24,065 nt of DNA from a virus: IMG/VR virus record IMGVR_UViG_3300010413_000345, positions 1 through 24,065 of that record; one strand, 5' to 3'. Numbering within the stretch: the stretch's first letter is position 1; every line of letters begins with the position of its first letter. The notes below the pieces were generated by a model. That model was given only the letters and a program-made list of their open reading frames with translations, was not told where the DNA came from and did not search any database. Both the position numbers and the translations under genes were made by a program. Positions 539 to 19,017 of this stretch are shown one piece after another.

Positions 539-955
539 TCACCTGATTTCTATATATATTTGACTGTAAAGTTTTCTTAGCTGAATCTTTACTGGCCTAT
601 AACCGCCCGTGTTGATGTCTTGATGCAATGGAGGTTCAGAGGGTCTTGCAGGAAGGAGATAAAACCAGCCCCATCCTTCGATTTTCACCCACAATATGCC
701 ATTCTGACTTACAATCAAAACAGGAGTCTTGATATTGAACTCGATGTTGATATTTTCCTGCCAGAACCAAAGGCAAGGCTTTATCGTAAACCTCCAAATG
801 GAATCCGGTTGCAACCCTCCGGTAATTGCGCCATAGAAATATGAGCCATCATCCATGTGGGCTTCTGCCATGCCTATCCACCCTGAATAATCTTGGGCAT
901 TTGCCTGAATAGAAATGCAAAATAGCAGAATCAATAATGCAATCCATTTTTTCAT
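539..955 (-). CDS. Exported hypothetical protein with Sec signal peptide
   Basis: A 138-residue protein. The N-terminus is a classic signal peptide: two lysines, a hydrophobic core (WIALLILLFCISI) and an A-N-A cleavage site near residue 20. The mature part is rich in W, Y, F and short strands (IWRFTIKPCLWFWQEN, ILWVKIEGWGWFYLL), as in a small beta-sandwich. It starts directly after the stop of the long fibre gene (GAGG, then TAA-T-ATG). A secreted product in the late operon is odd, because virion proteins normally stay in the cytoplasm. It is one of four such proteins in this operon. Role unknown; a periplasmic or surface factor is possible. Confidence 0.7.
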   Translation of the reverse strand: MKKWIALLILLFCISIQANAQDYSGWIGMAEAHMDDGSYFYGAITGGLQPDSIWRFTIKPCLWFWQENINIEFNIKTPVLIVSQNGILWVKIEGWGWFYLLPARPSEPPLHQDINTGGYRPVKIQLRKLYSQIYIEIR

Positions 956-956
956 A

Positions 957-3494
957 TTATGCCTCTGTAGCTAAGTTTATTGCGCTCCCTGTTGGGAAAA
1001 TGACCATTAATCTTACCTTCCCGCCTGAGGTATCCGCGTAAAGTTTTGCGTAATTGGCCAGGTTTGTCACGCTTGCGGCACCATCAGTGTAAAATCCGAT
1101 CCATCTATTAGCCGCTGTGCTCGGATTAACCTTTGTAGGTCTATGCAATTCAATGGTTGTGCTTGATCCTCCCCCTATATAGACATCCCCGCCATCACTG
1201 TATATTGACAGGTTGCTTCCTGCCGTAAATCCGTATTCTCTCACTGTCGCATTGTAAGAATTTCCATCTTCCGTTACTGCAACCATCGCTATACCTACGC
1301 AGTAATTTCTCCGAGCATTTATGGGCTGAGGTATAGTAAAGGATGAAGGCAGGCTTGCTACGTTCATCCACCCAACTATCGGATCTGCAGTCAATGAAAT
1401 CCCACTCGTCGCCCCCTCTTTTATGAATACAGCCATGTGCGTAGCTGGATAAGTCCCTGGGGTATACCCAAGATTGTTTATAGTTACATCACCCTGGTTT
1501 GCAGATTCGGTTTGAGCAACATTCATAGTCATGCCGCTGTTAGGAGCAGCACTCGGCGCAATGTTATTTCTATACTGCTCAGTCTCAAACCAGACCTGAC
1601 CGCCAGCCCAGTCAATCTCTCCGACGCTGGTAGCCGCGTGACTCGTTCCATAGTTTGAAGAAGGCGTGAAGTTCCAAGAATCCGATCCACCGACAACCTG
1701 ACCTGCAACTCCGACGAACTCCGCATAAATCGTCACAGTCACGTTCTTCGAACTCTTAAGCCTGTTCAGCGTGAGCGAGTATGTTCCAGTTGTGGTCGGC
1801 CCCTTCGCCCGGTAGACGTACGTTGCTGTGCCGTCAGTAATGGTGAACGTGAATTGATTACACTTATATGTTCCCTGCGTGTAATACCAATAAAGTACCA
1901 CTGTTGCACTATTATCATCCGGAGTTCCGGCTAGTACATACCTGTCGAGCGAGGATACGCTATTTGAGGGCGCTGTAGTATTCTTTACCTGTTCAAGCGC
2001 AGTCGCATTTGTAATATCGCCGCTTGAAGCAGACAGCCCGGAACAAAACGGCCCCCAACCTTCATCTGCCGATCCTGCTCCATATTTGGCTTCAATAACC
2101 GCCTTAGTCGTTGCGTCGCTAGCTACGCCACTCTGATTGTGCCAGGCTATCCGGCAATATTTTGTCTTGTTTGGCTGTGTAGCTTCAGCATGATTTATCG
2201 GTCCCCAACCTTTTGAGGTATCCACATTGACCGTGAAACTGGCGTCGTCAGCGCCCTCGATGCACACATCATCCAAGGTGTTGTATCCGGTTGCGGGAAT
2301 ATCCCAATGGCCGACAAACTTTCCATTTGCACCTGTAAATGAAAAATTCTGTGGCGCTCCCGGCAAGACAGTATCAGTTGCCCCGCCCGGAAGGTCGATA
2401 GTGTTGAAAGCCGAAGTTACCGCTGAAGCGGAGCTGCGGCCTAAGTGATTCCATACCCAGGCGCGGGCATACCAGTTGGTTCCGGCCGGCAGAGCTATCG
2501 GAATATCCACATATCCCCGGTCCCTCATTTCAGATCCTATGATGTGAACATAAGGGTAGAAGCCAACCAGACTATCAACTTGCTCCATATTTAAGGTGAT
2601 CCGATAAGCATAAGATCCAGAAGGACCAGTATTGACATTCGCCATCCTCAGTTGCGTCTCACTCACCACTTCAGTAACCATCGCTATATTGACATTGGTT
2701 GCAGGACTTCCGGGCCAGGGATCATCGGTGCTCCACATGATCCAATGTCCTATAGCCACACCGGAACTTACAAACGTAGCGGTTGAGTCGGTGAATAAAT
2801 CCGATCCCTGCACCAGACTTCCTTTGTTCGATCCTGGATTGTAAACCGGGCTTGCTTCGGGATTTGTCATACTGCTAGAGGTATGGAATTGAATTGCTGC
2901 TTGCCACAAGCCACGGCAATTACTATGTCCATGCCATGATACCCGTGCGGTCACTTCCCTGTAGTTTACAGTGTCAATATCGTCGGTATTGTAAACAGCC
3001 AGATCCGGCGCATCGGGCACGGCAGAATCGCCCATGCTGTTATCAAGATCAAACTCAACTGTCGAAGAATATGCCCCTTGTCCCACAGGATTTATTGCGT
3101 AACCTCTCGCATAGAAATGTCCCGGAGCGGTAGTAATGAAAGTAAAGATTGCTCTTTGAAGCATCACGCCTGAAAGCTCAAAGGTTTTGACTATGCTTGA
3201 AAAAGCTCCGTCAGTAGCAATATCGGCCTTGATGCTGGTAACATTGCCCCACCCTACCGCTTCAGCGATCAAAGGTGCATGAGCGTTTTCAACTCCAACT
3301 GTGGCTGTGAGCGGTCCTGCTTGAATGACATCGAAGGCCGGGGCTTCCGGCACTTCCCCAACTTCGGGTATGCCGCCAGCTTTGAGTGCCGCGAAAATAT
3401 CTGCGAGGTATCGAAACCAAGGCCGCGACATTAACTTATTGTCACCTTCGAGTACCGGCGTTCTCAGCGGTGCAGGTGAATATCTTGTTGGCAT
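957..3494 (-). CDS. Large tail fibre or receptor-binding protein with fibronectin-III-like modules
   Basis: An 845-residue protein without a signal peptide, placed directly after the gp10-like gene, where P22-type phages encode needle, fibre or tailspike parts. The N-terminus (MSRPWFRYLADIFAAL, about residues 22-37) resembles the short attachment segment common in phage tail proteins. Several beta modules follow with fibronectin-III signatures: an end strand such as YARAWVWNHLGRSSASAV near 345, a similar FYARGYAINPVGQGAY near 128, and PGAPQNFSF near 380. One module carries an inserted domain (about residues 220-300). The C-terminal strand (NYAKLYADTSGGKVRLMVIF) resembles a fibre-tip segment common in environmental phages. 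The start has AGGAAGG upstream. Fibre or receptor binding is inferred from position and fold; no enzymatic motif was seen. Confidence 0.65.
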   Translation of the reverse strand: MPTRYSPAPLRTPVLEGDNKLMSRPWFRYLADIFAALKAGGIPEVGEVPEAPAFDVIQAGPLTATVGVENAHAPLIAEAVGWGNVTSIKADIATDGAFSSIVKTFELSGVMLQRAIFTFITTAPGHFYARGYAINPVGQGAYSSTVEFDLDNSMGDSAVPDAPDLAVYNTDDIDTVNYREVTARVSWHGHSNCRGLWQAAIQFHTSSSMTNPEASPVYNPGSNKGSLVQGSDLFTDSTATFVSSGVAIGHWIMWSTDDPWPGSPATNVNIAMVTEVVSETQLRMANVNTGPSGSYAYRITLNMEQVDSLVGFYPYVHIIGSEMRDRGYVDIPIALPAGTNWYARAWVWNHLGRSSASAVTSAFNTIDLPGGATDTVLPGAPQNFSFTGANGKFVGHWDIPATGYNTLDDVCIEGADDASFTVNVDTSKGWGPINHAEATQPNKTKYCRIAWHNQSGVASDATTKAVIEAKYGAGSADEGWGPFCSGLSASSGDITNATALEQVKNTTAPSNSVSSLDRYVLAGTPDDNSATVVLYWYYTQGTYKCNQFTFTITDGTATYVYRAKGPTTTGTYSLTLNRLKSSKNVTVTIYAEFVGVAGQVVGGSDSWNFTPSSNYGTSHAATSVGEIDWAGGQVWFETEQYRNNIAPSAAPNSGMTMNVAQTESANQGDVTINNLGYTPGTYPATHMAVFIKEGATSGISLTADPIVGWMNVASLPSSFTIPQPINARRNYCVGIAMVAVTEDGNSYNATVREYGFTAGSNLSIYSDGGDVYIGGGSSTTIELHRPTKVNPSTAANRWIGFYTDGAASVTNLANYAKLYADTSGGKVRLMVIFPTGSAINLATEA

Positions 3495-3496
3495 AC

Positions 3497-4945
3497 TTAG
3501 TGCCTTCCTAAAGTCCCGTTAAAATAAGCATCCGTGATTGCGATGTGCGCGTTGCTGGTCGTGTAAAGCTCAAACACTCGATCCTTGCAGGCTCCAAGGC
3601 GATCCCATCTGAAAGGCGTATTGTAATCGCCAGTGAGAACAGTCCGACTCTGTGCAGTGTTATAGGTCTTTCCACCATCATCGGACCATTTAAGATATGC
3701 GGTTATGTCAGCCAATCCCTTCTCAATGTCAGCCTCAAAGCTGTCGTACCGCACTTTCTTGTTTTCATTGGCAAGGTGAGGGGCGCGGCGCAGGCAGCAT
3801 CTTGCCGTCCCTGCATCCGTATTGTAATCGTGGTCCATGATGTAGATGCTGCCGTCTGAGCGAGAGCCTATGAGATTTCGCGCAATTTTTGTATGGCAGC
3901 GGCCAAGAAAAGCATTGTAAGACGCTGGGTCCGCGCCATAACCTGTTTCAAACATCTGGCCGCTGGCAGCATCCCAGGCCCAGGACTTGTTATCCGCAGG
4001 GAAATAAATGTTGTAGAACTGGTGCCCTTCAGACAGATATCCCCAACCGATTGCCGTGGAAGTAGTGTAATGGGCGATAGCCTTCTCAAAAGCATGGTTA
4101 CTGATTCGCTCGATATTGTAGCCATTGCCGCGAACAAGAATGTTCTCGCCAAGGTTGCCGCTTCCAGGCTGCGGGAAGGTAGCCAGCCAGATCGGTTTTC
4201 CGTCGATCTCGCAAAGGGAATCGGGTGCGCGGATCCCGTACGGCATTGTGGCTTCCTGCACGCGCTTGAAAGGAAAGTCGGCGCTTCCATCGTGCCACCA
4301 AATCTCTGTGGTCAAATCTCCAATCATCCATAATTCATTGTGTGTGACCAGCGCAGCAGATAAGTTGTCGATCATGTAATCGGCAGTGTTGTAATCCAGC
4401 GCGTTCCAGGTATCTCCTGAATAAAGATTCGCAATATCGCTGATGTAGAACTTATCCCCATCCACTCCGATTGCAATGAAGAATCCGTTGAGAAAGACAA
4501 TCCGTTTGCCGCTGCTAAGGCCAGTGATGGAGATTAATGATCCCAAGGTATCGTCGATGCAGTAAGGCGTGCTGTTGGATATGAACATGATGTCCGGACG
4601 GCCTACGGCAAAGTACACCGGGGAATTGTTTGAATCCGTGCCGACACTTCCAAGAGAGCTTGGAGTTAATGAACTTGGCACTCCACCCGAATAATTGATC
4701 GTGACTTTATAAAGCGTTGATCCACTCACAACGTACATATAGGTTGCGCCGATGGACATGCCCCTGATCGGCCCACTCCCCACTGTGCCAAGCAAAGACA
4801 GTCCCGGCCGGCTGTGGTAGATCACTTTACTCTTGCCTGTGCCTGATTCGATTATTTCAGGGTACATATTGAGGCACTTCTGGCAATCGGCCAAGGCGCT
4901 ACGGTTCTCATAGGTTGGCCCTATAAATCCGGGTATGGACGGCAT
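3497..4945 (-). CDS. P22 gp10-like tail accessory / packaged DNA stabilization protein
   Basis: A 482-residue protein resembling P22 gp10 (about 470 residues), a hub protein that plugs the portal after packaging and carries the needle and spikes. Similarities I recognise are the N-terminal P-x-N/C-L-N-M-Y/L segment (CQKCLNMYPEII, compare PVNML in gp10), a start rich in repeated short beta strands (MSIGATYMYVVSGSTLYKV), and a middle AIAHYTTSTAIGW region like gp10's RSYTAEEM. The start ATG overlaps the stop of the gp4-like gene by one base (TAATG), so the two adaptors are coupled. Gene order coat, gp4, gp10 matches P22. Confidence 0.85.
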   Translation of the reverse strand: MPSIPGFIGPTYENRSALADCQKCLNMYPEIIESGTGKSKVIYHSRPGLSLLGTVGSGPIRGMSIGATYMYVVSGSTLYKVTINYSGGVPSSLTPSSLGSVGTDSNNSPVYFAVGRPDIMFISNSTPYCIDDTLGSLISITGLSSGKRIVFLNGFFIAIGVDGDKFYISDIANLYSGDTWNALDYNTADYMIDNLSAALVTHNELWMIGDLTTEIWWHDGSADFPFKRVQEATMPYGIRAPDSLCEIDGKPIWLATFPQPGSGNLGENILVRGNGYNIERISNHAFEKAIAHYTTSTAIGWGYLSEGHQFYNIYFPADNKSWAWDAASGQMFETGYGADPASYNAFLGRCHTKIARNLIGSRSDGSIYIMDHDYNTDAGTARCCLRRAPHLANENKKVRYDSFEADIEKGLADITAYLKWSDDGGKTYNTAQSRTVLTGDYNTPFRWDRLGACKDRVFELYTTSNAHIAITDAYFNGTLGRH

Positions 4946-5649
4946 TAAGCGAATCCTCCGGTAAGGTAGTCAAACTCATCCCCACCGCCAACATCCAATT
5001 CACATTCGATTGCGTGGGTGTTGATGTGCTCGAGCAAAACCCGACCTTTCTGAGCGCGGTTGACTATGTTCTGTGTCAATTCCATGCCAAAGTAATCCGT
5101 AAGGCGTTCAGCCAGGTTCCACACAATCGCATCCTCATATCCAGGCTGAAGGGATATATCGCTGCTACTCAAGGCCGTCAGTGCCGCAGGATAAAAAGCC
5201 TCGAAATAATCCGTAACTACAGTCACATAAGGCCAGAAATAGAGCGTTCCATTGGGATAAGTGGGCTTGTAATAGACTTTCCGTGATATGGTAGATTCCA
5301 GACCTCTAACCCTGATTTTTGAATATTCACGGGCATTAATGATATCCATTGGATACCTTACAACCTCTGATCCCACATACATATAATTGGCTGCGTCGAG
5401 GCGAATAGGGCGAGGAGCGGTAAGATTTGCGCCACTGGCTCCGATAGTGTAATAAGTCCGGGCCGTGGCAAATGCGACCTCGCAACTGGTCTGATACGGC
5501 ATGACTAGCCCTTGCGCGTTCCAGAAGTCCAGCATGGCATTTGCTTCTGCTAATCCATCAGTCTGATCGTTGGCATTGATCGTCTGGCCGCCACCAAGCC
5601 GCCCAATGATCTTTAATGCTCTCTCTACTAGATTTACGCCGGTAGTCAT
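4945..5649 (-). CDS. P22 gp4-like head-tail adaptor
   Basis: A 234-residue protein with the features of the P22 gp4 tail accessory family: an N-terminal helical part (NLVERALKIIGRLGGGQTIN), then LAEANAMLDFWNAQGL, a beta part with VYYKPTYPNGTLYFWP, and a helical end containing YEDAIVWNLAERLTDYF. In P22, gp4 binds the portal and starts the tail; it has also been reported to have muralytic activity. It is longer than P22 gp4 (about 166 residues). Its start overlaps the stop of the upstream Cys-rich gene in an ATGA, and its end overlaps the gp10-like start. Confidence 0.85.
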   Translation of the reverse strand: MTTGVNLVERALKIIGRLGGGQTINANDQTDGLAEANAMLDFWNAQGLVMPYQTSCEVAFATARTYYTIGASGANLTAPRPIRLDAANYMYVGSEVVRYPMDIINAREYSKIRVRGLESTISRKVYYKPTYPNGTLYFWPYVTVVTDYFEAFYPAALTALSSSDISLQPGYEDAIVWNLAERLTDYFGMELTQNIVNRAQKGRVLLEHINTHAIECELDVGGGDEFDYLTGGFA

Positions 5650-5975
5650 TTCTTGCCTTTCTTTTTGGCTTTCTTCGGCTTAACAGGAATCGCTTTTGGT
5701 TTTTCTTCTTCCTTCACTTCAGGTTCAGGCTCGATTGCAGGAGGTTCGGCTTCAATTACCACGGGCTGACTCACGGGCTGTTCAACTTCCGGTGGGTAGA
5801 GCAATGGCCTCTCCATTATCGGCATAGGCTTAGATTCCGGTATGCCCTTTGATTTGAACTCCCCGCACCAATCGTTTTCTGCCATGAACTCATGCTTCGG
5901 ATATCGCTTGCAAATCTCTCCTGCGCCATCCTTATACCAAAACCTACAGGTATGGCAGGATATGTCCTTATCCAT
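5646..5975 (-). CDS. Small four-cysteine protein with acidic/proline linker and lysine-rich tail
   Basis: A 109-residue protein. The start is taken as ATG 5975, because AGGAG lies five bases upstream; an ATG at 5990 has no such site. Residues 7-37 carry C-x2-C, C22 and C37 (CHTCRFWYK, then CKRYPK and DWCGEF), the pattern of a small zinc or metal knuckle. A Pro/Glu-rich linker follows (residues 55-95) and the end is strongly basic (KPKKAKKKGKK), likely to touch nucleic acid or an acidic partner. It is coupled by ATGA to the gp4-like gene. Function unknown; a head-completion or DNA-contact role is a guess from position. Confidence 0.7.
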   Translation of the reverse strand: MDKDISCHTCRFWYKDGAGEICKRYPKHEFMAENDWCGEFKSKGIPESKPMPIMERPLLYPPEVEQPVSQPVVIEAEPPAIEPEPEVKEEEKPKAIPVKPKKAKKKGKK

Positions 5976-6023
5976 GTTTTCTCCTCTCATTTGCCGTTAT
6001 AACGGACAAGAAGGGTATTTTAG

Positions 6024-6062
6024 GCAGGGGAAGGGAAGCTAGCAAAGAAACCCTCCCCCTGC
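6024..6062 (-). terminator. GC-rich hairpin after the capsid genes
   Basis: In the 125-base gap between the decoration-like gene and the Cys-rich gene, GCAGGGG (6024-6030) pairs with CCCCTGC (6056-6062), and an inner GGG pairs with CCC across a two-base mismatch, with a 15-base loop. It lies after the coat and decoration genes, where phages often place a partial terminator or processing stem. There is no clear U-run on the minus strand after it, so a transcript stop is uncertain. Confidence 0.4.
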
Positions 6063-6100
6063 GGCCTGACTAGGGAGGTATGTCTAGTCGGCCAACTTGA

Positions 6101-6835
6101 TTAAAACTGCCTGGTCCACTCGATTTCGATATTACCGGTGGCGGTAATCGTCGCTGCGCCAGCCCAAGTGTCTGCGGCGTTCAGGTGGATGGTGTGAGCA
6201 TCGCCTGTATTCCGTTCGAGCTTGGTTGTCACAATGGCGTTCACGGCAGTGCCGGCGCAATCTCCTGCGGTCTGACCCGTAAGGATGTTTTCAAACGTGG
6301 CTGTACCGCTAAGAACCGCTGTAGCACCGGAGGCGATTACCGTACCCACACCAACATCGGGAGTATCCGCATCGCAGGTTGAGCCGCTGCCATAGATTCC
6401 AACGGACATTCGGCAACCCTTGATCTGGATTGCACCAGCGGGAAGGGTATAGAGCTTCTTGCCCATTGCGACGGCTGCGGCTGAAGCTGTGCCGAGCGTG
6501 ATACCGCTGAAGCTAAGTTTAGTGACATGATTTCTGCCATTAACGCTTTCCTCAACGCTTATTCCACTTTCAGGCACTCCTACCGCTTCTCCTGGCGCAC
6601 GATTGAAGTCGGCATGAGGCCCGACCAGAACCAGTGAACCATTTGCATGAGCTTCCTGCTTTCCTTTTAAGCCGCGGAAAAGCCCTATGGTGGTTCCGGT
6701 AATGCTAAGAACCTTGCACTGCTCGTTGTCAATGCACACAGGGTATCCCACGACGAATCCGGTTGCGGAAGCGACGATGATGTTACGATCATTCTTGCTG
6801 ATCGCTGCTGATAAAGTTGTTGCTGTGACAGTCAT
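6101..6835 (-). CDS. Putative capsid decoration or head fibre protein
   Basis: A 244-residue protein directly after the coat gene (13-base gap, ribosome site GGGAGG). Residues 1-75 form a small beta domain of a kind common in phage head and tail proteins (ISKNDRNIIVASATGF, then CKVLSITGTTIGLFRGLKG). The rest is Gly/Thr/Ala-rich and strand-forming, with MGKKLYTLPAGAIQIKGCRM near residue 125 and a C-terminal NIEIEWTRQF. There is no signal peptide. Position and composition suggest it binds the outside of the capsid, but it could also be a minor structural fibre. No enzymatic motif. Confidence 0.6.
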   Translation of the reverse strand: MTVTATTLSAAISKNDRNIIVASATGFVVGYPVCIDNEQCKVLSITGTTIGLFRGLKGKQEAHANGSLVLVGPHADFNRAPGEAVGVPESGISVEESVNGRNHVTKLSFSGITLGTASAAAVAMGKKLYTLPAGAIQIKGCRMSVGIYGSGSTCDADTPDVGVGTVIASGATAVLSGTATFENILTGQTAGDCAGTAVNAIVTTKLERNTGDAHTIHLNAADTWAGAATITATGNIEIEWTRQF

Positions 6836-6848
6836 TTTGGCCTCCCTT

Positions 6849-8090
6849 CTATAACAAGGACGCTACGCGGCAAGCGCAATTCTCTGCGTACAGAGAACCG
6901 AAGCCGAGTAAAACGTCAAATCTGTTAATCATGGTCCGGGTGCGGCCTTCAAACTGTCGGACAAACGAAATTGCCAAACCGGATTTTGGATCCCTTTGCG
7001 TACTGGCAACCTCAACAGCCTTGGGTTCCTCGAGCTTCACGCCGACTAGCGCAAAGGCATCGCGGTTGATCGCAAGACCGTTGATCCCGTATTTGGGACC
7101 AGTGTAAGGGGCCGTTGTTCCCGGCATATTGGTGATTGTGGCCGAAGATCCAACAGGCAGCGCATCAACATTCTGATACGGGCTGTCTGGACCGTAAATG
7201 GCCGGAGCAAAGTAGAGCGTATCCGTTCCACCTGTCAGCGTAAGATCCTGAGTTACGACGAAGTTTTTCAGGTGTCCTACGCTTCTGCGGGTACCAGGGT
7301 TGCAGGCATAGGAGGCGCTGAAGGTGAATACATCGCCTTTCTTCAGAGTTTCCGCTGCGGTTCCTGCAATGCTTACCGAGGTCGCGCCATCGGTCAAGGT
7401 GGTTTGCACTGTGCAGGTATTCTGCAACGTGCCGCAAGTATGCGAATAGAGGCTCACGGACTCATACCACTGGAAGCCACTGGCATTGCCCATCAAACCT
7501 TCTTTGTACTGACGGCTGATCTCGTTTGCAGGATTGGTCAGAGTAGTAAGCTGGCCGGCAATCGTTGAGTGCATTGCAGGGCTTACAATCATCCCTTTTT
7601 CGCCAGGGGTGCAGCCAAGCTCTACAAGCCTTTGACGCGCACTCAGGTAGGTTGAAAGAGCCGTTGGAGTTGTCCCCAAAGCTCCGACGATGTTCGGCGT
7701 ATTGTAATAAGCATACTGAGCGCAGCGGGAGTCGATCTCCTGTTTGATCTGCGCCATAGCAGGCTCAATGTACTCACGCCTTACGATGTCCTCGCCACGT
7801 TCCATGTTCAGTGCTTTGTCCACGGAATCGTAGTCAAAGTCCACGCCGAAAATCTGATCCATAGTTACTGGAACAGTCTTTCGGTCAATGGCTTGAGGAT
7901 CGTAGGTTGTGCCTTCGCGGATTACAAACCGCTGTGGCAACTTGACATAAACCGTTTCACCAACGGCAAAAGCACGCTGATATTCACGGTTCATATCCGT
8001 ATTGAAGAACTGCGCCACTTCGAGCTTGTTGACAAGAATCCTCAAGCTCTCCATCGTGACCCAGGTCACTTTTTGGAAATTGTTAGTCAA
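6849..8090 (-). CDS. Major capsid protein, P22 coat (gp5) family
   Basis: A 413-residue coat protein, close to P22 gp5 (430). The HK97-fold parts are recognisable: N-arm (TMESLRILVNKLEVAQFF), strands with GETVYVKLPQRF, the DFDYDSVDKALNMERGEDI segment, the spine-helix region EPAMAQIKQEIDSRCAQYAY, and the P-domain loop with GMIVSPAMHSTI. An inserted beta domain (about residues 220-310, including LKKGDVFTF and NPGTRRSVGHLKNFVV) corresponds to the P22 I-domain. The start codon is TTG at 8090, with AGGAG six bases upstream; no in-frame ATG fits the conserved N-terminus. It follows the scaffold gene by two bases. Confidence 0.9.
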   Translation of the reverse strand: MTNNFQKVTWVTMESLRILVNKLEVAQFFNTDMNREYQRAFAVGETVYVKLPQRFVIREGTTYDPQAIDRKTVPVTMDQIFGVDFDYDSVDKALNMERGEDIVRREYIEPAMAQIKQEIDSRCAQYAYYNTPNIVGALGTTPTALSTYLSARQRLVELGCTPGEKGMIVSPAMHSTIAGQLTTLTNPANEISRQYKEGLMGNASGFQWYESVSLYSHTCGTLQNTCTVQTTLTDGATSVSIAGTAAETLKKGDVFTFSASYACNPGTRRSVGHLKNFVVTQDLTLTGGTDTLYFAPAIYGPDSPYQNVDALPVGSSATITNMPGTTAPYTGPKYGINGLAINRDAFALVGVKLEEPKAVEVASTQRDPKSGLAISFVRQFEGRTRTMINRFDVLLGFGSLYAENCACRVASLL

Positions 8091-8092
8091 TT

Positions 8093-9130
8093 TTATCTCC
8101 TGTTACTCTCACGGGCGTTCATGGCTGCGATGTAGCGGCCCGGATCACCCGCTTCAAGAGCGGCAACCACTTCATCAGAAGGAGATCCATTTCTCCCGCT
8201 GAAATCCTTTGGGGGTGGCAATGCGCTCGTAATGGTTTTTATGTCAGGAGATTTGGAACCGGCAAACTTGCTTTCAAGTGCTGCCATTTCAAGATTAGTC
8301 TGAGCCGGATTGAGCGCCGCGATGCGCTTTGCCTCTTCAGGGTTCTTGCTCAGGTAGTACAGGATCTTAGCGCCATTATCCGAAAACAGCATGTGCCTGT
8401 CAGTCTGCGGATTAATCGGAACTTCAGGACTAAAAGCCTTGGAGGTCACATCCTCGTAATCGTCATACACAGCCATTGCTTCAGCCGTTCGGCGATCCCA
8501 GGAGTCCTCCTGCTGCTTTTTAGTGGTTTCGGATTGCTTCCTTGCATCCTCCTGTGCGCGTTCCTGGTCCCGGCGCTGCATCTGGTAGGCGGTCATTTCA
8601 TCGCGCCATTTGTCCTTCGCATCGTCGTACTGCTCCCAGGTTTCGTAATCCTCACGATTGGGCTTCACAGGAGCTTGCAGATCGGCAGACTGTTGTGCAG
8701 CGGCAGGCGCAGCCGGTGCTACTTCGCCTTTTCTGAGACTTTCCATCTGCTTCTGCAAAGTTTCAATCTCGGTCCTTAATTCCTTTCTCTGCTTCAACTG
8801 GTCCTGAATGGTCTGAGCAAGCTGGTCAATTCGCTTTTCAGCACCAGACGGTTTCTTGTCCTTTATCTCCTTGCTATCCTTTGCCGCATCCGACGCGGCT
8901 GCGTCTTTAGGGGGTGTACCCTCGGGCTTTACTTCCTTTGTGGGTTCCGCATCCTTACCCTTCGGTTTTGCCTGTTCTCCGGTTTTGAGCCAGTTGTCAT
9001 ACTCCTCCTGAGAATAGCTGGCCAGGTCTTTCACATCCTCAGATTCGGTTGGCTCTACTTCCGTTTGAACTGGCGGTGTTTCTTGTTTCTGATCCGCGGG
9101 TGACGGTGCCGCATTTTGTTCGTCTGGCAT
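8093..9130 (-). CDS. Capsid scaffolding protein
   Basis: A 345-residue acidic, low-complexity, highly charged protein between portal and coat, as P22 gp8 (about 303 residues). Residues 1-110 are disordered and rich in P, E, K and Q. About residues 105-140 form a coiled coil (IDQLAQTIQDQLKQRKEL), followed by an Ala/Gln linker, a second charged helical stretch (EDYETWEQYDDAKDKWRDEM) and a C-terminal helix with ALEAGDPGRYIAAMNARES. In P22 a C-terminal helix-loop-helix binds coat; the basic end here (RESNRR) would suit that. The ribosome site (AAAGGA) sits at the edge of a perfect hairpin. Confidence 0.85.
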   Translation of the reverse strand: MPDEQNAAPSPADQKQETPPVQTEVEPTESEDVKDLASYSQEEYDNWLKTGEQAKPKGKDAEPTKEVKPEGTPPKDAAASDAAKDSKEIKDKKPSGAEKRIDQLAQTIQDQLKQRKELRTEIETLQKQMESLRKGEVAPAAPAAAQQSADLQAPVKPNREDYETWEQYDDAKDKWRDEMTAYQMQRRDQERAQEDARKQSETTKKQQEDSWDRRTAEAMAVYDDYEDVTSKAFSPEVPINPQTDRHMLFSDNGAKILYYLSKNPEEAKRIAALNPAQTNLEMAALESKFAGSKSPDIKTITSALPPPKDFSGRNGSPSDEVVAALEAGDPGRYIAAMNARESNRR

Positions 9131-9139
9131 ACTAAGTCC

Positions 9140-9160
9140 TTTCCAGTGCGCGGCTGGAAA
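9140..9160 (-). promoter_or_regulatory. Hairpin at the scaffold gene ribosome binding site
   Basis: On the minus strand TTTCCAG (9160-9154) and CTGGAAA (9146-9140) form a perfect 7-bp stem with a 7-base loop. The stem ends exactly where the GGA of the scaffold Shine-Dalgarno site begins (9139-9137), so its AAA half is paired. The ATG is at 9130. Pairing could limit scaffold translation. P22 scaffold synthesis is known to be autoregulated after transcription; a link here is inference. Confidence 0.5.
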
Positions 9161-9178
9161 TCTTGTTCGCGCAATAGA

Positions 9179-9217
9179 AAGCCCCTATTTCAATCACAAT
9201 GACCGAAATAAGGGCTT
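9179..9217 (-). terminator. Strong stem-loop after the portal gene
   Basis: Arms at 9179-9191 (AAGCCCCTATTTC) and 9205-9217 (GAAATAAGGGCTT) pair over 13 bp with one G-U pair and a 13-base loop, starting eight bases after the portal stop. On the minus strand it is followed by TCTATT, a weak U-tract. It may be an attenuating terminator or an RNA-processing stem that sets the portal-to-scaffold ratio, which must differ greatly between twelve portal and hundreds of scaffold copies. Confidence 0.6.
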
Positions 9218-9224
9218 GCTGTTA

Positions 9225-11297
9225 TTAAACTTGTTGTTGTCCCTGCTGCTGTCCGGGCGCTTGATTCGGCGCGGCAACAGCATTGATCCTTTGCTGCAAT
9301 TCTGCCTGTTGAGCTTGAAGGGCTGTTTCGTGTGCCATACCTTCCTGCTTGCCCTGGAATCCAAGCAGCGCCTTGAATCTCTCAACATCGGCCTGCAAAG
9401 CTGCAATCAATTCCTTGCTCTCAAGCTCTTTGGTCTTGGAGCGCATTTCCTCACTGAGAGTATTTAACTGCTCTGTCAAAGCCTGTATCAACTGCTGCAT
9501 TTCCATCATCTTCTTGGACATTGACGCAGGGCTTTCCTCGGTCTTGAACTGCTCTGGCTTCAACCGCTCGGCCATTTCCTCGCCGTATATGCCAAGCTGC
9601 TGCATCTTCACGATCAGATCACCGATGAGCGCGAATACTTCAGGGCGGTTGGCAACAATCGCATTAGCGAAGTTTTCAGCCTTCTCACGCTGGCTCTGGA
9701 AGCTCGGACCGATTGAGATTGCAACTCCATGCTCTCCAACGGCAGCCTTGCGAAATACCTGTTCATTGGTTTTCTGGTCAACAACGGGTTCGTTTATCCT
9801 AATAAACTCCCGCTGACCATCTTTCTTCATAATGGGAACATCGCGTGCAGAATCGTAAATCTTTCCGATCATGTTATCCATGATTCGGCCGGCGTGCTCG
9901 AGCGCCACATCGTAATTGTCAATGAAGTGGTAATTACCCTGGTCGCTCTGAGTGTCGAGTGCCTTGATCGCCACACCTGACTTCACTCCTGTTTCAGCGC
10001 GGCCCACGCTTACGTTATACATCCCAAGGGCGCTTTGAATCGCTCTACGGGCTGCTTCACTACTCAACATAAGCGATTGAATCTTCTGCGCAGTCCCTTC
10101 GTAAGTCACTTGCTGCGGTGGTGGCAACTGCTGTCCCTGCGATCCTTCAGTGGTCAGACGATAGTAGAGCACGTTGAAAGGCTTCTTGTTGGCCTGGAAC
10201 CAATCATTTTCAAATCCATCCAACTGTCCTTCTGCGGCGGTCCATGTAACTTTCGGAGCTTGAGCGATGGTTTCAGCTTCAGCCGTCTTTGTGTAGGCGT
10301 AAAGCATTACAGCATCCCGAGCGAGGCGCACAAGCGAAAGCAGTTTCCTCTTTGCACCGTCCCCTTTATCCATCCATATCTCACGGCCAAATACCGGAAC
10401 AATCGGGATCCAGCGGCCCTCCCAGGGATTGACTTGCAGGATCTCAATGCCATTGGTGACGTACTGCACAATGTTTCGTCGCTCCGACATGCGCTCCTGA
10501 AGTATTGGAAAGGCAATACCATTGAACATCACAGCGCCATTCTGGATTGCTCCCTTTTCCAACTGGTCGGCCCATACATTAGTATTTTTCTGCTGATCCC
10601 CTACCCTAAGCAGTTTCGCTCTCTTGGTTTCAACCTTCCAGTAGCCGGCCACCTGAACGTGCTTTTCTTTGATCCAGTGAGGATACTTGGTCTGCATTTC
10701 CGTGGTGAAATCCTTGAACTCGGTCTTGTTTCCGAACTCAGACTGAAACCGCTCTTTGGTGTAATCATCCATTTCAAAGGCAAAAGTCATGTCTGAAGCA
10801 TCGGCCTCTTTGAATCCGGGATCAATGAGGATGGTATTCGGATTAGGAATCCTTTGAATATAAAGCTCCTGGTCGAACGAATCCTCACGAGTGTAGCGTT
10901 TCCCGATCTTGAAGTAACCATAACTTCGCTGGATCGCGTTCTCAAACGCCGTGATATAGGCCGCCTGCCCTCCATCCCCTTCTATCTTCCGGATGATGTC
11001 TGCGTGAAGCTCGGCGGTCTGCTCGTCTGCGCCGCCACCTTCAGGACTGATTTTTACTGCACGCTTATTCTGCCGGATGTTGTTTATCGCCTGATTCGTA
11101 TACTGGTTCAATTCATCAAGAGATAATGCCAGCCGTTTATTCTGTGGATTGTTACGCCGTTCTTTCTCATCCTGGGGCCAGGGATCTCCTGTAACATAAC
11201 GCATGTCGGTATCGCCTTCCTTGCGTATATCGGCCCACTCATCATTTGCGAAATCGAAATTATCTGTTATTTCCTTCAAAAGATCATCGTTTGGCAT
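9225..11297 (-). CDS. Portal protein, P22 gp1 family
   Basis: A 690-residue portal protein, close to P22 gp1 (725). The start is ATG 11297, which overlaps the TAA of the upstream gene (TAATG); an upstream in-frame extension of 54 residues lies inside that gene and is not portal-like. Family features include the N-terminal DEWADIRKEGDTDMRYVTGD, then ALSLDELNQYTNQAINNIRQ, SYGYFKIGKRY, IPNPNTILIDPGFKEAD, and the crown/stem helices near GVKSGVAIKALDTQSDQGNY. The C-terminus is a long helical, Gln-rich barrel (MSKKMMEMQQLIQAL and onward) ending in a Q-rich tail (APGQQQGQQQV). It forms the DNA entry pore at one capsid vertex and docks terminase. Confidence 0.9.
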   Translation of the reverse strand: MPNDDLLKEITDNFDFANDEWADIRKEGDTDMRYVTGDPWPQDEKERRNNPQNKRLALSLDELNQYTNQAINNIRQNKRAVKISPEGGGADEQTAELHADIIRKIEGDGGQAAYITAFENAIQRSYGYFKIGKRYTREDSFDQELYIQRIPNPNTILIDPGFKEADASDMTFAFEMDDYTKERFQSEFGNKTEFKDFTTEMQTKYPHWIKEKHVQVAGYWKVETKRAKLLRVGDQQKNTNVWADQLEKGAIQNGAVMFNGIAFPILQERMSERRNIVQYVTNGIEILQVNPWEGRWIPIVPVFGREIWMDKGDGAKRKLLSLVRLARDAVMLYAYTKTAEAETIAQAPKVTWTAAEGQLDGFENDWFQANKKPFNVLYYRLTTEGSQGQQLPPPQQVTYEGTAQKIQSLMLSSEAARRAIQSALGMYNVSVGRAETGVKSGVAIKALDTQSDQGNYHFIDNYDVALEHAGRIMDNMIGKIYDSARDVPIMKKDGQREFIRINEPVVDQKTNEQVFRKAAVGEHGVAISIGPSFQSQREKAENFANAIVANRPEVFALIGDLIVKMQQLGIYGEEMAERLKPEQFKTEESPASMSKKMMEMQQLIQALTEQLNTLSEEMRSKTKELESKELIAALQADVERFKALLGFQGKQEGMAHETALQAQQAELQQRINAVAAPNQAPGQQQGQQQV

Positions 11298-12172
11298 TAT
11301 CTTCTTAGCCTCGCTCTTCCCGCTGAATTTCCGGCTATGTATTGATAAGCACCTATGTCCCAGGCACTTCCAGAGGGCCTTGCATTTCCTACGGTAGAAG
11401 CCGATCCCGCGCCTACCGTATTGGGCCTGTCGTAACAAAGGGCCGTATATGAAGTGCAATAAGATGTTAGATCCTGTCCGGCCCCAACAATCGGTGATCC
11501 TGCAGGCGGCTTATACACCGCATCCAAATTAGGATTATCGGTTATGCTATTACATTCATTGTCATCATTAGGGCAACCACCGAGATAGGTTTGCCACGCC
11601 GCTAGAGTATCGTATTCTGGCCCTCCTGTGTAATTGGCATAATGGACAAAATCATAATTATTGTTGTAATCCGAAGTGGGGACTGGAAGTGTTATGGATA
11701 ACTTATTAGCATCAACGCAAACATTATTTCTTATGTCCATAGCCTTGCCAGCAAAACAAGCTGCCGTGAATGTCCCTACTACGGTATTGTTCCAAAATCT
11801 GGCATCAGTATTTGTAGCAGACCAAGATACAACGCCATTAGATGGATTTGGAGCCACGCTAGTGTTTAGATACGGGCCAGCGATAAACAGGTTATTATAC
11901 ATAATGGCGTCATCAATGGTCCCGTAATCAAAATGAGCAAATGAGGTTGCGGTTGCCCCCCATTTGCTTCCAGGTGGAAAGTTAGTCCAGTAGAGCATCG
12001 GCCCATGTATGTAATTGTTATACCATTCTGAGTTTGTCAAAGATGAGGATTCCGGATCTGCGTGACCATCGCTATATAGATAGATTCCGTTGGCATGGCA
12101 ATCACTGCTTCCGTTGCTCATCCAATTACCGCCAATTTCTATATCATTGTTATGGATATTTACCTCATCCAT
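11297..12172 (-). pseudogene. Right-handed beta-helix protein, C-terminal part (frameshifted from the gene at 12180-12842)
   Basis: 291 residues that look like the downstream coils of a parallel beta-helix: short repeats with conserved Asn ladders (VNIHNNDIEIGG, YNNYIHGP, YNNLFIAGP, FWNNTVVGTF, IRNNVCVD) and an end with PPAGSPIVGAGQDL and WDIGAYQY, the typical close of pectate-lyase-like secreted proteins. The frame opens without a convincing start, and its codons before MDEV read E-D-D-Q-I, continuing the fold of the upstream frame. Together they would make one exported protein of about 514 residues. The stop overlaps the portal start, so translation of this frame may matter for portal expression. 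Confidence 0.7.
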
Positions 12173-12174
12173 GA

Positions 12175-12192
12175 TTTGATCATCTTCCCCTG
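12175..12192 (-). other. Frameshift site in the beta-helix gene
   Basis: Minus-strand TTC-AGG-GGA-AGA-TGA contains a run of four G (plus strand 12187-12190, CCCC). Removing one G gives R-E-D-D-Q-I-M-D-E-V and joins both halves without a gap. The cause may be a homopolymer sequencing error, a real mutation, or a +1 programmed shift; the sequence alone does not decide. Confidence 0.7.
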
Positions 12193-12842
12193 AACCAGAC
12201 TATGCCAGTAGACGCGTCGGATATATCGCAATCGTGAACGTCTACATATGTTGTTCCTTGAAAATAGATTCCTTTCCCTCCCCCATAAGGCATAGTGTCA
12301 TCGGTTGTGGTCTGGTATTGATGCACATACATAGTTCTTATTGTGAGGTTTTGAACGGTAATATAGGTCGACGTTCCCCACACATAGATTCCAGTCGGAG
12401 AGAGGTTGTTGGTATACCCCGCAATCGCGCTTCCGTTGTCGGTAGCCTGAATTATCCCTACTCCCATGCCATCTACTATAACGTCGTGTTTGTTTGAAAT
12501 TGAAACGAGATTTGTTTGACCGGGAACTTGTATGGTTCCCGGAGCATAACTTTCTCCACAATTAGCCGTATCGCAAAAAGCAAGCGTCACTGGGTTGTGT
12601 GTGCCGCCATCCCCGCTTGCGCCAACAACAACGGCTTGACCGTAAACAAGATTAACGGTTCCGCATATCCAAACAGTATCCCCAGCGGTTACGCCAGACC
12701 AATTCCAAGTATATGCTCTTGCATTGGCACAAGACGTACCATCGCCTGAGCCTGCTGCTGATTCGGCTATATAGTAATCTGCGGCAAATGATGATGAGAC
12801 AAATAAAACCGATAAGAGCATAAAAGCTAAAATATGTCTCAT
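12180..12842 (-). pseudogene. Exported right-handed beta-helix protein, N-terminal part (frameshifted)
   Basis: 220 residues with a clear signal peptide (MRHILAFMLLSVLFVSSSFA, cleavage before ADYYI). The mature start YYIAESAAGSGDGTSCANA is the usual opening of secreted parallel beta-helix proteins, followed by GDTVWICGT, HDVIVDGMGVGI, STYITVQNLTI and TTYVDVHDCDISDAS. The frame ends in a beta-strand turn (GIVWFRGR, stop), and the same fold continues in another frame. The start overlaps the LamG gene stop (ATGA) and has GGAG upstream. Roles of such folds include polysaccharide binding or cleavage (tailspikes, pectate lyases); no catalytic residues can be assigned here. Confidence 0.75.
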
Positions 12843-13684
12843 TGTCCCGCTCCCGTAAGCAGTATAGATGTTCCTGTGCCACCACCGGAAACGTCGTATA
12901 CCCCGTTTCTTATATCATCTATTTCATCATCACTCAGAATATCGTCAAAAACAGCAAATTCATCTATAAGTCCGTTGTGGAAACTAGCCGGAGTTCCGGA
13001 ACTAGACAGACTACCCAAAGTGAATAATCCATCTTCTATGTTTATATTGTTTGTAGCAGTTCCACTGTCATTTTCTGTAGATCCTCCGTCCGTGTAAAGC
13101 CTTGCCGTCCATGCTTTAGTATCGTCCCGGTAAGTAAGGCCAAAGTGATACCAAGTATTGGTCGAGAAAGATTTGTTTGAGAACAGTCCGGTTCCGCTAG
13201 GAATCTGCTCAAAACTAGACCCGCCGTTATAGCCTAGTAAAATATAAAGTTTCTGGTCAGTACTTATATCCCCAAATGCAAAACTTCTTTTGTTTCCAAT
13301 TGAATCCCACTTGCCGAATACATAATGCCCCCCAGTTAAAGTAGTAAATCTGACCCAGAAAGTAACGCTGATTATTTTCTGAGAATCCCCATTCAATAAC
13401 GGAAAATCGGAAATCGTTAGGGCAATATTGGCATCCGTAGAATAAAGAGCCTGACTACTACCACTAGCAAACGCCGCTGAATATGAGCCTTCTTTGTGAG
13501 TTGAGCTTTGCGTTACAGTATTGTAATTGGTCAGAAGGGTATCGTCGTCTGTAAGCTCCTCGCGTGTTAGGGTCTCAAAAAGGAAGACAGCCTTACAATG
13601 GGAGTCGCTTGCAAAATTGTTGGCTGCAAATACAGGGGAGCAAACAAAAAGCAGGCTAAAAATAATGAATAGAAATCGTTTCAT
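12839..13684 (-). CDS. Exported LamG-like (concanavalin A-fold) protein
   Basis: 281 residues. The signal peptide (MKRFLFIIFSLLFVCSPVFA) is followed by a single jelly-roll domain of the laminin-G-like type: AVFLFE at the start, ISVTFWVRFTTLTGGHYVFG in the middle, NTWYHFGLTYRDDTKAWTAR near residue 185, and NGLIDEFAVFDDILSDDEID near the end. The WYHFGLTYR and GLIDEFAVFDDILSDDEI segments are hallmarks of LamG_3 domains, which bind glycans or proteins and usually have no catalysis. The gene is coupled by ATGA to the beta-helix gene downstream and lies 12 bases after the repeat-protein gene, so the three exported proteins are made as a unit. Confidence 0.75.
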   Translation of the reverse strand: MKRFLFIIFSLLFVCSPVFAANNFASDSHCKAVFLFETLTREELTDDDTLLTNYNTVTQSSTHKEGSYSAAFASGSSQALYSTDANIALTISDFPLLNGDSQKIISVTFWVRFTTLTGGHYVFGKWDSIGNKRSFAFGDISTDQKLYILLGYNGGSSFEQIPSGTGLFSNKSFSTNTWYHFGLTYRDDTKAWTARLYTDGGSTENDSGTATNNINIEDGLFTLGSLSSSGTPASFHNGLIDEFAVFDDILSDDEIDDIRNGVYDVSGGGTGTSILLTGAGQ

Positions 13685-13696
13685 GCTAACCTCTAA

Positions 13697-15919
13697 TTAC
13701 TTTTGAACATAAGTTATATATCCCGAAACTCTTGATGTTCCATTTTGAGTTAGGCAAAGAGCGTTTCCACCCGTATTAGTATGGAAGGCTGAAGCTGCAC
13801 CATTGCCCGCCGTAAAACCACCGTTGGCAGCAAAAGACATACCATTTCCTTGTGTTGTGCTTCCAACTACCGCTAGTGTGGATGTTCCGCAAACGCTTCC
13901 AGTGCCTTCAATGAAATTAATTATTTCCGCTGCTGCCCCCACGAGGACAGCCGAACACACATAAATCTTTGTGCTGCCGGATGCGGCCACGAGTTGAGCA
14001 TCGTCAGCCTGACTGACAGCTAAGGTTGTGGAGGCCGTATCACTACAAGGATCTATCGTCGTGGTAAGTAACAACTGATCCGTAGTGAAGTGCAGACCAC
14101 CTTTGTCTCCGTCCTCTATGGCGGTGCGCGACGCCTCATACTCACCGCCAACAAACACCGGATTTTCTCCGGCGTTTATTGCAGAATCTATAGCTGAATC
14201 GTCGGCTTGCGCTCCTGTGCTCGTCACAAGGCGCGTGTATATCGGATGAGTCGCGTCATTCGCAGTGCCCGAACCATCATAAGCGGAAGCCTGTACCACA
14301 AAGGTTCCCGCGTTATCAACTTCTAAAGCAACCCCTCCATCATCAACTGAAATGCTGCTTGAATTATCGTCAATGGAAAGCGTAGAACTTGCATCGTCAA
14401 CGGAAATAGTGTTAGTGATGTCTGTCAGAGTTCCACTTATGGGGAAGGTGCCGCCCGTACCAGTGACGAGTAGGGCGTTGGTGTTGGAGGCGGTATTTTC
14501 CAAGGATACTTCCAACGGATTGCCGGCCACACCGGTTGCGGTTGCGTCAGATTCCTCAAGAGTGACGTATAAACCTCGACTAGCGTTCATCGCCAAGGCA
14601 CCGGCATCGTTATCGTCTACCGTATCCCGGCTAGATCGATAAATTCCAGCTACAGGAGTTGTTGAAGTGGTGCCCACAGTAAAGGCCGAATCATCATTCA
14701 TTGCCGTGCCACCTGAGCCACCGAATGAGGTAATTTGATTGCCGGAACTGTCAACGACCTGCACGGATAATGCTCGTTCTGATCCACGGCTTGCGCTTGT
14801 AAGAGCGTTTCCGGATCCATCCTGAGTCTGACTATTCCATGTGCCTGATTGCGTGGCTGCTACAGTACCATCAACCGTTATGACGTTTCCACCATCATCA
14901 ATCGACAGATCCCCGGAGTTATCGTCCACATGAACAACATTAGTGATCCCGGTCAGAGTGCCATCAATACTGATCGTACTGGCTCCATCGTCGATTGAAA
15001 GAGTGCTGGAATTATCATCGACATGAACCACATTGGTTATACTTGTAAGAGTACCGTCGATTGAGATTGTGGATCCTCCATCATCCACTGAAAGGCTAGA
15101 TCCATTATCGTCCACGGATATAGGGGAGCCACCATCATCTACCGTCAGACTTCCACTTGCATCACCCACTGGCAGGACATTAGCTGTTCCTACCGCCCCA
15201 ATGGTATCGGCGCTTGCCTCGATCATCAGTACCGTGCCTGTAATCGTTGCGTCAGTATCGCCCTCAGTGTATTGGGTGCCACCTCCAAAGGTTGTGATCT
15301 GCGTTCCGGATCCATCGACGAGCTGCACGGATAAAGCCTGTTCACTTCCCCTGGTCGCGCTCGTAAGAGCATTACCGCTTCCATCCTGCATTTGAGCATC
15401 AAGACCACCGGATCCAGCTTTCACAGGCAATCCAGTACCGTCAACCGCACCGGAATTGTACTCGAGTATGTTTGTGTCAACCGTGCCAGTAACCGAAGCG
15501 GATCCAGCCGCATTGTTAGGGCTGGCCTTGGCAAAATTCATCTGCACGGTAATTGTGCCGCTGGTATAAGCCGAGCAGCGCACCCTAACGGATTTCATCG
15601 CGCCGGTATTGACTTGCCAAGCTCCTGCTGCGGTTGCACTTGTGGCCGTCGACAGGGTTCCCGGCACAATGGCTGTAAGAGAAACCCAATTATCGCCGTC
15701 CATCGTCCCTTCAAACTGCACGGTAGCGGTAAAAGTGCCGGAGAGCTGAACACCCATCACGCCGTTATCGCTGATCCGGTCAAATTGAACGCAAGCGCCA
15801 GAAGTTGCACAGGTAGTCCCAGCCGCACTCAAGGTTCCTGAATAACTGGTATCGGCAAAAGCTGGTCCCGCCAGTATCAAGAGCATCATAATTAGGGTTA
15901 AAAGTGATTTTTTCATCAT
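13697..15919 (-). CDS. Exported 740-residue repeat protein with phage structural domains
   Basis: The signal peptide (residues 1-22, cleavage after A-F-A) precedes a beta-sandwich at about 25-135 of a kind found in phage structural proteins (GVMGVQLSGTFTATVQFEGT). A 40-residue unit occurs twice, at about 176-213 and 364-401 (QDGSGNALTSAxRGSExALS in both). Residues 257-350 and 505-535 hold short S-V/I-D-D-G/N-G/S-S repeats. The C-terminal 117 residues (624-740) form a separate beta domain with paired cysteines (KIYVCSAVLVG, GTGSVCGTS, ALCLTQNG). It resembles the stand-alone protein at 19018-19389 and decoration-like domains of other phages. The start overlaps the upstream stop (ATGA), with GAGG upstream. 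A fibre, adhesin or surface decoration is likely; the signal peptide is unexplained. Confidence 0.75.
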   Translation of the reverse strand: MMKKSLLTLIMMLLILAGPAFADTSYSGTLSAAGTTCATSGACVQFDRISDNGVMGVQLSGTFTATVQFEGTMDGDNWVSLTAIVPGTLSTATSATAAGAWQVNTGAMKSVRVRCSAYTSGTITVQMNFAKASPNNAAGSASVTGTVDTNILEYNSGAVDGTGLPVKAGSGGLDAQMQDGSGNALTSATRGSEQALSVQLVDGSGTQITTFGGGTQYTEGDTDATITGTVLMIEASADTIGAVGTANVLPVGDASGSLTVDDGGSPISVDDNGSSLSVDDGGSTISIDGTLTSITNVVHVDDNSSTLSIDDGASTISIDGTLTGITNVVHVDDNSGDLSIDDGGNVITVDGTVAATQSGTWNSQTQDGSGNALTSASRGSERALSVQVVDSSGNQITSFGGSGGTAMNDDSAFTVGTTSTTPVAGIYRSSRDTVDDNDAGALAMNASRGLYVTLEESDATATGVAGNPLEVSLENTASNTNALLVTGTGGTFPISGTLTDITNTISVDDASSTLSIDDNSSSISVDDGGVALEVDNAGTFVVQASAYDGSGTANDATHPIYTRLVTSTGAQADDSAIDSAINAGENPVFVGGEYEASRTAIEDGDKGGLHFTTDQLLLTTTIDPCSDTASTTLAVSQADDAQLVAASGSTKIYVCSAVLVGAAAEIINFIEGTGSVCGTSTLAVVGSTTQGNGMSFAANGGFTAGNGAASAFHTNTGGNALCLTQNGTSRVSGYITYVQK
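14870..15151 (-). repeat. Coding repeats of the SxDDGGS type
   Basis: Residues 257-350 of the 740-residue protein consist of tandem 8-9-residue units such as SLTVDDGGS, PISVDDNGS, SLSVDDGGS and STISIDG. Two longer unit pairs (GTLTSITNVVHVDDNSSTLS and GTLTGITNVVHVDDNSGDLS) show a recent duplication of about 30 residues. The regular Asp/Gly turns suggest a stacked beta shaft, possibly metal-binding. Confidence 0.75.
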
Positions 15920-16116
15920 ATTATCCTCGTTTGACTTCCATTCTTTTCAAGCCGGTATTTCCTTCCGCATCGTTCAATAATGCGTCCAGGCTCAAAAGGA
16001 ACGTAGCCGATTTTATTGATCTTTCCTCGATCATCGTATCCTACCGCCACTGCTATTGAAGGCTTTTCTGGATACCCTTTCTTTGCAAGCGGATCGCCGA
16101 ATCTTTCAATCTTCAT
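15916..16116 (-). CDS. Hypothetical 66-residue protein
   Basis: Small basic protein (MKIERFGDPLAKKGYPEKPS, then AVAVGYDDRGKINKIGYVPF and GRKYRLEKNG), mainly beta by appearance. There is no signal peptide, and no family is recognised. The start ATG overlaps the end of the upstream gene by 11 bases with GGAAAG as ribosome site. The stop overlaps the next start in an ATGA, so it is coupled to the large exported repeat protein. Confidence 0.65.
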   Translation of the reverse strand: MKIERFGDPLAKKGYPEKPSIAVAVGYDDRGKINKIGYVPFEPGRIIERCGRKYRLEKNGSQTRII

Positions 16117-16318
16117 AGTCTTTCCAGTTGTAGCCGCCTTTGCTAAATTCGCCCTTTTTCAGTTTCTTTTTGTACTTTTTTAGTGCCTTGTGGTACTTTG
16201 AAACATAAGGCAGCATCTTGGCTTCATAATATGCCATATCTTTTCCTCGATCCTCTGACTTCATAGAATCTTTATTTATTCCTCGAACTTTGTTAATGAA
16301 ATCCATAACAGAGGACAT
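16106..16318 (-). CDS. Small lysine-rich protein with GGYxWxDYE tail
   Basis: A 70-residue protein starting at ATG 16318 with GGAG seven bases upstream. The first 45 residues look helical (MDFINKVRGINKDS, YYEAKMLPYVSKYHKALKK). The last 21 are a basic-to-aromatic tail (KKKLKKGEFSKGGYNWKDYE plus D) that recurs nearly unchanged at the end of the neighbouring protein encoded at 16330-16512, whose N-terminal part is unrelated. A shared tail on two different small proteins suggests a common docking signal for the same partner. Confidence 0.7.
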   Translation of the reverse strand: MSSVMDFINKVRGINKDSMKSEDRGKDMAYYEAKMLPYVSKYHKALKKYKKKLKKGEFSKGGYNWKDYED

Positions 16319-16329
16319 ATTAAATCTCC

Positions 16330-16512: not shown

Positions 16513-16513
16513 T

Positions 16514-18252: not shown

Positions 18253-18274
18253 TTAGCCGCCTTAAAAGCTATTT

Positions 18275-18718: not shown

Positions 18719-18730
18719 AATTGATAGCTC

Positions 18731-19006: not shown

Positions 19007-19017
19007 GAGTCTACCTC

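Follow-up and report, generated by a model that had tools for sequence, protein, structure and literature searches.

Organization of the late operon

The sequence analysed here (hereafter the window) is a virus record of 24,065 bases, the minus strand of which reads as the late operon of a P22-type podovirus. On this strand we found a small terminase-like gene (20657-20968), the gene for the terminase large subunit TerL (19393-20718), an accessory block (11297..19389) and the genes for the portal protein (9225..11297; phrog_156, E 1e-84), a scaffold (8093-9130) and the major head protein (6849-8090; phrog_283), followed by two head-tail genes at 4945-5649 and 3497-4945, the latter matching head closure Hc3 (E 9e-69). 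Downstream lie a tail-fibre-like gene of 845 aa without a signal peptide (957-3494), an orphan gene at 539-955 and a further gene of the operon at 191-535. The labels "small terminase" and "tail-fibre-like" are presumptive, as they stem from gene order and general knowledge without a database match.

In all of the approximately 25 related contigs where both genes were found the portal gene directly follows TerL, whereas in the window the two are separated by 8.1 kb, namely by the accessory block. Within this block, the gene at 18275-18718 matches phrog_644, a family of unknown function common to Caulobacter and Mycobacterium phages, and the gene at 16756-18252 encodes many tandem repeats of the type ENQWIEIPNGSFSLTPYAPTV and has no signal peptide.

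Four genes of the window encode predicted Sec signal peptides

The preliminary description had attributed Sec-type signal peptides to the products of 539-955, 12180-12842, 12839-13684 and 13697-15919. All four ORFs are present on the minus strand and start with ATG. The N-termini were evaluated with a home-made caller combining a weight matrix with rules for the n-, h- and c-regions, which was applied to genes called mechanically on metagenomic contigs and which, calibrated on 24 E. coli signal peptides (sequences from general knowledge), recovered 24/24. The attribution was borne out: the caller was positive for all four proteins (MKKWIALLILLFCISIQANA/QDYS, MRHILAFMLLSVLFVSSSFA/ADYY, MKRFLFIIFSLLFVCSPVFA/ANNF and MMKKSLLTLIMMLLILAGPAFA/DTSY, with predicted cleavage at QANA/QD, SSFA/AD, PVFA/AN and PAFA/DT) and negative for every other gene of the 29-gene greedy set of the window and for all spurious ORFs (0/71). 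Shuffled N-termini passed at a rate of 0.2% overall, and of 0.1-2.9% at the four genes' own composition. Each of the four segments combines a K/R-containing n-region, an uncharged hydrophobic core and small residues at positions -3 and -1, the features of Sec export and cleavage by SPase I.

A lipobox ending in Cys, as in SPase II lipoproteins, was found in none of the four segments, and a lipoprotein reading was rejected on this ground. Likewise, none of the four proteins has a Pfam or PHROG match to a peptidoglycan hydrolase domain; endolysin and spanin readings were discarded for want of a lipobox or domain.

The 138-aa orphan protein encoded at 539..955 on the minus strand, downstream of the tail-fibre-like gene, has no relatives among the viral contigs and no Pfam or PHROG match. 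Its gene is located 10 kb away from, and outside, the cassette formed by the other three, with which it has the signal peptide as sole feature in common. From this signal peptide, the protein is predicted to be exported as well.

Three signal-peptide genes form a cassette, one of them frame-broken

The first gene of the cassette (13697..15919, minus strand) encodes a protein of 740 aa, for which the caller predicts cleavage after residue 22. The protein has a beta-sandwich-like domain at the N-terminus, ISVDDGGSTISID-type repeats and a C-terminal domain ending in ..VSGYITYVQK, the latter matching a homologue in L092 that ends in YIITYVQQ and likewise carries a signal peptide. The AlphaFold model of the 740-aa protein (pLDDT 38) was unusable; the search for related loci returned nothing for it, and isolated phages yielded weak domain matches only.

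The second gene (12839..13684, minus strand) encodes a 281-aa protein with a LamG/concanavalin A-like lectin domain (Pfam Laminin_G_3, E 3e-16) and a signal peptide with predicted cleavage after residue 20. A single relative with 38% identity was detected in L057, located at the end of the contig, with no direct match in isolated phages and no homologue in the four bacterial genomes carrying the beta-helix family described below.

The third gene had been described as the ORF 12180-12842. This ORF begins with a signal peptide (predicted cleavage after residue 20), and its product aligns with 60% identity over residues 13-225 of a 567-aa L078 protein. The ORF 11297..12172, located one base out of frame on the same strand, encodes a product that ends in RPSGSAWDIGAYQY and a short tail and aligns with 52% identity over residues 258-553 of that L078 protein. 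As the two halves correspond to the front and rear portions of a protein that every relative encodes in a single ORF, we conclude that a right-handed beta-helix gene is broken in this record by a one-base indel near 12175-12190, arising from either mutation or assembly error. Hence, 12180-12842 holds as an ORF with a signal peptide but not as a whole gene; it is the 5′ half, continuing as 11297-12172 after the frame break, and the three-gene cassette spans 15919..11297. Programmed frameshifting was set aside, because the relatives all consist of one ORF and because, by eye, re-pairing of the P-site codon before the stop would be poor.

The three genes, which had been taken as adjacent and translationally coupled, are indeed adjacent. 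An overlap exists at 12842/12839 (ATGA), but the genes ending at 13697 and starting at 13684 are 12 nt apart and do not overlap. At its upstream end the cassette overlaps the preceding gene at 15919/15916 (ATGATG).

The cassette occupies a site that is empty in a near relative

The gene upstream of the cassette (15916..16116, minus strand) encodes 66 aa with 47% identity to L002:121-294 (E 6e-11), L002 being the nearest phage relative as judged by the head protein (65% identity). In L002 the stop of this homologue overlaps the portal start. Since the two flanking genes directly overlap there, the site of the cassette is empty in L002, which supports the earlier suggestion that the exported proteins are cargo. 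In the window, the 4.6-kb cassette (11297..15919) fits exactly between 15916-16116 and the portal gene and overlaps both of them; the portal ATG shares bases with the beta-helix stop codon (TAATG). The cassette genes also show a GC3 of 0.37-0.45 as compared to 0.50-0.63 for most head and packaging genes.

Given that the cassette genes overlap or lie at most 12 nt apart, there is no room for a promoter, and promoter-like and terminator-like matches did not exceed those in shuffled sequences. Both observations suggest that the cassette is expressed within the late operon.

The signal peptide is conserved in the beta-helix family and such cassettes recur in phages

The rule for signal peptides was passed by 11/13 phage members and 3/4 bacterial members of the beta-helix family, as compared to 0.2-5% of their own shuffled N-termini. 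The rule-failing members in L062 and L081 appear signal-peptide-like by eye, and the L092 beta-helix protein starts like a lipoprotein. In the family the signal peptide ends beside the first beta-strand. The preliminary description had named homologues without the N-terminal segment as evidence against export. For the beta-helix protein this objection does not apply, as 11 of the 13 phage members have the segment by rule and the other two by eye. For the 740-aa protein the picture is divided: the segment is present in L092, L094, L095 and L100, and the shared domains occur without it in L069, L070, L071 and L099.

In contigs related by major capsid protein (MCP) or TerL, 7/799 ORFs carry signal peptides, compared with 42/293 in phage contigs carrying the beta-helix family (Fisher p 1e-18), the latter set having been chosen for this family, which itself makes up approximately 12 of the 42. 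Runs of 2-6 consecutive signal-peptide genes were present in L059, L062, L063, L066 and L089, L063 having a run of six as judged by eye. Several of the phage contigs with the beta-helix family contain marker proteins, namely a portal in L061 (phrog_146), an adaptor in L062 (phrog_332), a head protein in L063 and L092 (phrog_371), a head closure protein in L064 (phrog_578) and terminases in L068 (phrog_38) and L066 (phrog_2). By these markers, the phages have unrelated heads, with unrelated portals, MCPs and terminases.

The cassettes of L092 and L095 resemble that of the window. Both comprise a 740-aa-protein homologue with the C-terminus ITYVQQ, a further signal-peptide protein whose domain is unrelated, and a beta-helix protein; nearly all of these cassette proteins have signal peptides. 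In L095 the homologue of the 740-aa protein starts with TTG, has a clear signal peptide and overlaps the preceding gene (TTGA). Signal-peptide genes of other kinds were encountered as well: L094:7823-10627 encodes a 934-aa protein with a weak match to a GH30 beta-sandwich (E 0.005), on a contig with several further signal-peptide genes, and L065:945-7112 encodes a phage-contig protein of 2,055 aa with a signal peptide, upstream of further such genes.

The closest homologue of the beta-helix protein, in L078, carries a signal peptide, and its contig has been assigned to a Paceibacterota MAG. Used as a query, this homologue gave no direct match in isolated phages, and the profile of the family had no sequence match in the PDB. 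Among the sampled bacteria the family is rare (4/297 and 2/287 genomes). Several exported beta-helix copies, including the closest relative of the window gene (52-60% identity), are encoded on the Paceibacterota-MAG-assigned contig at L078:8795-11662 and L076:144-1898.

Cysteine parity in related phages points to export independently of the N-terminus

Exported proteins that form disulfides tend toward an even number of cysteines, and one study of exported DsbA substrates reportedly uses the same criterion. Cysteine parity thus provides a test for export that is independent of the N-terminus. In 15 phage contigs with the beta-helix family, the mature signal-peptide proteins showed even:odd cysteine counts of 29:6, compared with 62:82 for the other ORFs (p 2e-5); when each sequence cluster was represented by a single protein, the ratio was 23:3 (p 4e-5). 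The window's own counts are mixed, with 12 cysteines over both beta-helix halves, the remaining three proteins having 7, 1 and 1. Thus, cysteine parity in the related phages indirectly supports that products of this type of cassette are really exported.

Relation to virion proteins and to polysaccharides

The beta-helix proteins gp49, gp53 and gp54 of Cellulophaga phage phi17:2, annotated as structural or tail-region proteins, lack a signal peptide; their assignment to the virion derives from similarity to phage phi4:1. The start of gp49 (MEYFVDGNITSSGDG) corresponds to the point following the cleavage site of the window protein (ADYYIAESAAGSGDG), and a 942-aa structural protein of phi17:2, equal in length to gp49, ranked second among the fold matches in the viral library. 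Taken together with the signal peptides, their conservation in the beta-helix family and the cysteine parity, this difference supports the earlier proposal that the late proteins are exported.

A model of the L078 homologue (pLDDT 63) matched GH136 lacto-N-biosidase (E 2e-6), the PL9 pectate lyase Pel9A, the HK620 tailspike and AlgG; as the TM-scores are low, we claim the fold class only. Pfam Beta_helix was above the cutoff in L078 and below it in the window half. From the model, the protein shares the right-handed parallel beta-helix with the tailspikes and depolymerases of HK620 and similar phages, which are likewise encoded with structural genes. However, known tailspikes begin with a virion-binding N-terminal domain and have no signal peptide, whereas in the window the helix starts directly after a signal peptide predicted to be cleaved.

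In the bacterial homologues L074 and L081, the neighbouring genes resemble, by sequence, glycosyltransferases, polymerases and flippases. These exported beta-helix proteins near polysaccharide genes share with the window protein the signal peptide, the domain order and an end of the type RPxSGxWDIGAYQY but are, unlike it, chromosomal and not phage-borne. An action of the cassette proteins outside the cytoplasm is well supported, and polysaccharide is their likely target.

Discussion

We consider it probable that the region 15919..11297 represents a horizontally exchanged late cassette, encoding Sec-exported carbohydrate-acting or adhesive proteins within the head operon of a P22-type podovirus. 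In this model the three products would leave the cytoplasm through the host Sec pathway, and, as infection draws to its end, the beta-helix, LamG lectin and repeat/beta-sandwich proteins would bind to polysaccharide or cleave it, whether in the periplasm, on the cell surface or in the surrounding medium. Clearing extracellular polysaccharide might promote release and spread of the progeny; alternatively, receptor sugars might be masked or destroyed, such that progeny would not re-adsorb and rival phages could not superinfect. A decoration of virions after lysis would be a further conceivable benefit. Since the window already has a tail-fibre-like gene that lacks a signal peptide (957-3494), the cassette products do not seem to be ordinary virion parts.

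A different interpretation would be that they are receptor-binding or decorating virion parts, which travel through the periplasm, acquire disulfides there and associate with the virion only during or after lysis. They share their folds (beta-helix, LamG, repeat fibres) with tail spikes and fibres, the cassette is located among head genes and expressed late, and related domains without signal peptides are of the virion type in other phages (L070, L099 and gp49 of phi17:2, annotated by similarity to phi4:1). However, the window has a tail-fibre-like gene lacking a signal peptide, the cassette is missing at the same site in L002, and to our knowledge no tailed phage assembles appendages via export. 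We therefore regard this interpretation as unlikely. Rather less likely still is its generalization, namely that a class of tailed phages builds part of the virion coat outside the cytoplasm by means of Sec export, periplasmic disulfides and binding at lysis.

The exported lectin and beta-helix proteins might serve specifically in superinfection exclusion or receptor masking by binding to the host surface late in infection. Predicted export and lectin-type domains would fit such a role, and phage-encoded exported exclusion factors are an established kind. The known exclusion proteins, however, are usually expressed early or from the prophage and are small lipoproteins or membrane proteins, and expression restricted to the late phase would be ill-timed for exclusion. 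In our view, a role confined to exclusion is hence improbable.

The bacterial origin of the closest beta-helix relative (L078, 52-60%), the broken frame of this gene and the deviating GC3 could also be accounted for if the cassette consisted of recently acquired bacterial genes for exported proteins, which decay without a function in the phage. We consider this quite improbable, since the other two cassette genes have open reading frames, several unrelated phages carry similar cassettes in which signal peptides are conserved and cysteines paired, and the frame break may be an assembly or strain-level indel. An assembly chimera of host and phage DNA, conceivable for a metagenomic record with its closest beta-helix homologue on a bacterial contig, is very improbable in view of the overlapping or near-abutting coding junctions on both sides, the flanks matching L002 and the occurrence of similar cassettes elsewhere, for instance in the phage contigs L092 and L095.

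If the region is an exchanged cassette for secreted proteins, as we favour, it has partial counterparts among known systems. Lys44 of the Oenococcus phage fOg44 and the SAR endolysins are late phage proteins exported by Sec (PMC6116005). The window proteins likewise are late phage products with predicted Sec export, but Sec-exported endolysins are enzymes of peptidoglycan lysis, whereas the window proteins carry lectin, beta-helix and repeat domains and occur in sets. Our literature search, with subscription papers mostly outside its reach, returned exported endolysins and did not turn up any description of a late operon with a signal-peptide cassette. Phage moron, lysogenic-conversion and superinfection-exclusion genes resemble the cassette in encoding exported accessory products and in the empty site in a relative, which in the present case is the syntenic site of L002. 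However, morons usually have their own promoter, whereas the cassette is coupled inside the head operon without space for one, and a promoter and terminator of its own were not found.

Late operons of tailed phages are usually read as lists of virion parts, and the spike-like proteins they encode receive "tail fibre" as their default annotation. If cassettes of this type are secreted, many tail-fibre annotations in metagenomic phages would be wrong, and a programmed secretome, directed at the polysaccharide that surrounds the dying cell, would be part of late infection. The contrast within the same domain, with a signal peptide in the window and none in the virion-annotated proteins of phi17:2, together with cysteine parity, renders this notion testable at scale.

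Several signal-peptide proteins, encoded by the cassettes of L058, L059, L061-L064, L092 and L095 and by window gene 12839-13684, end in glycine/hydrophobic tails such as SVTIK, GVTIQGVTIQ, SGPTVQAGPTVKQ, LLTLGVGR and ILLTGAGQ. These short tails look like a common C-terminal motif, perhaps for anchoring or trimerisation.
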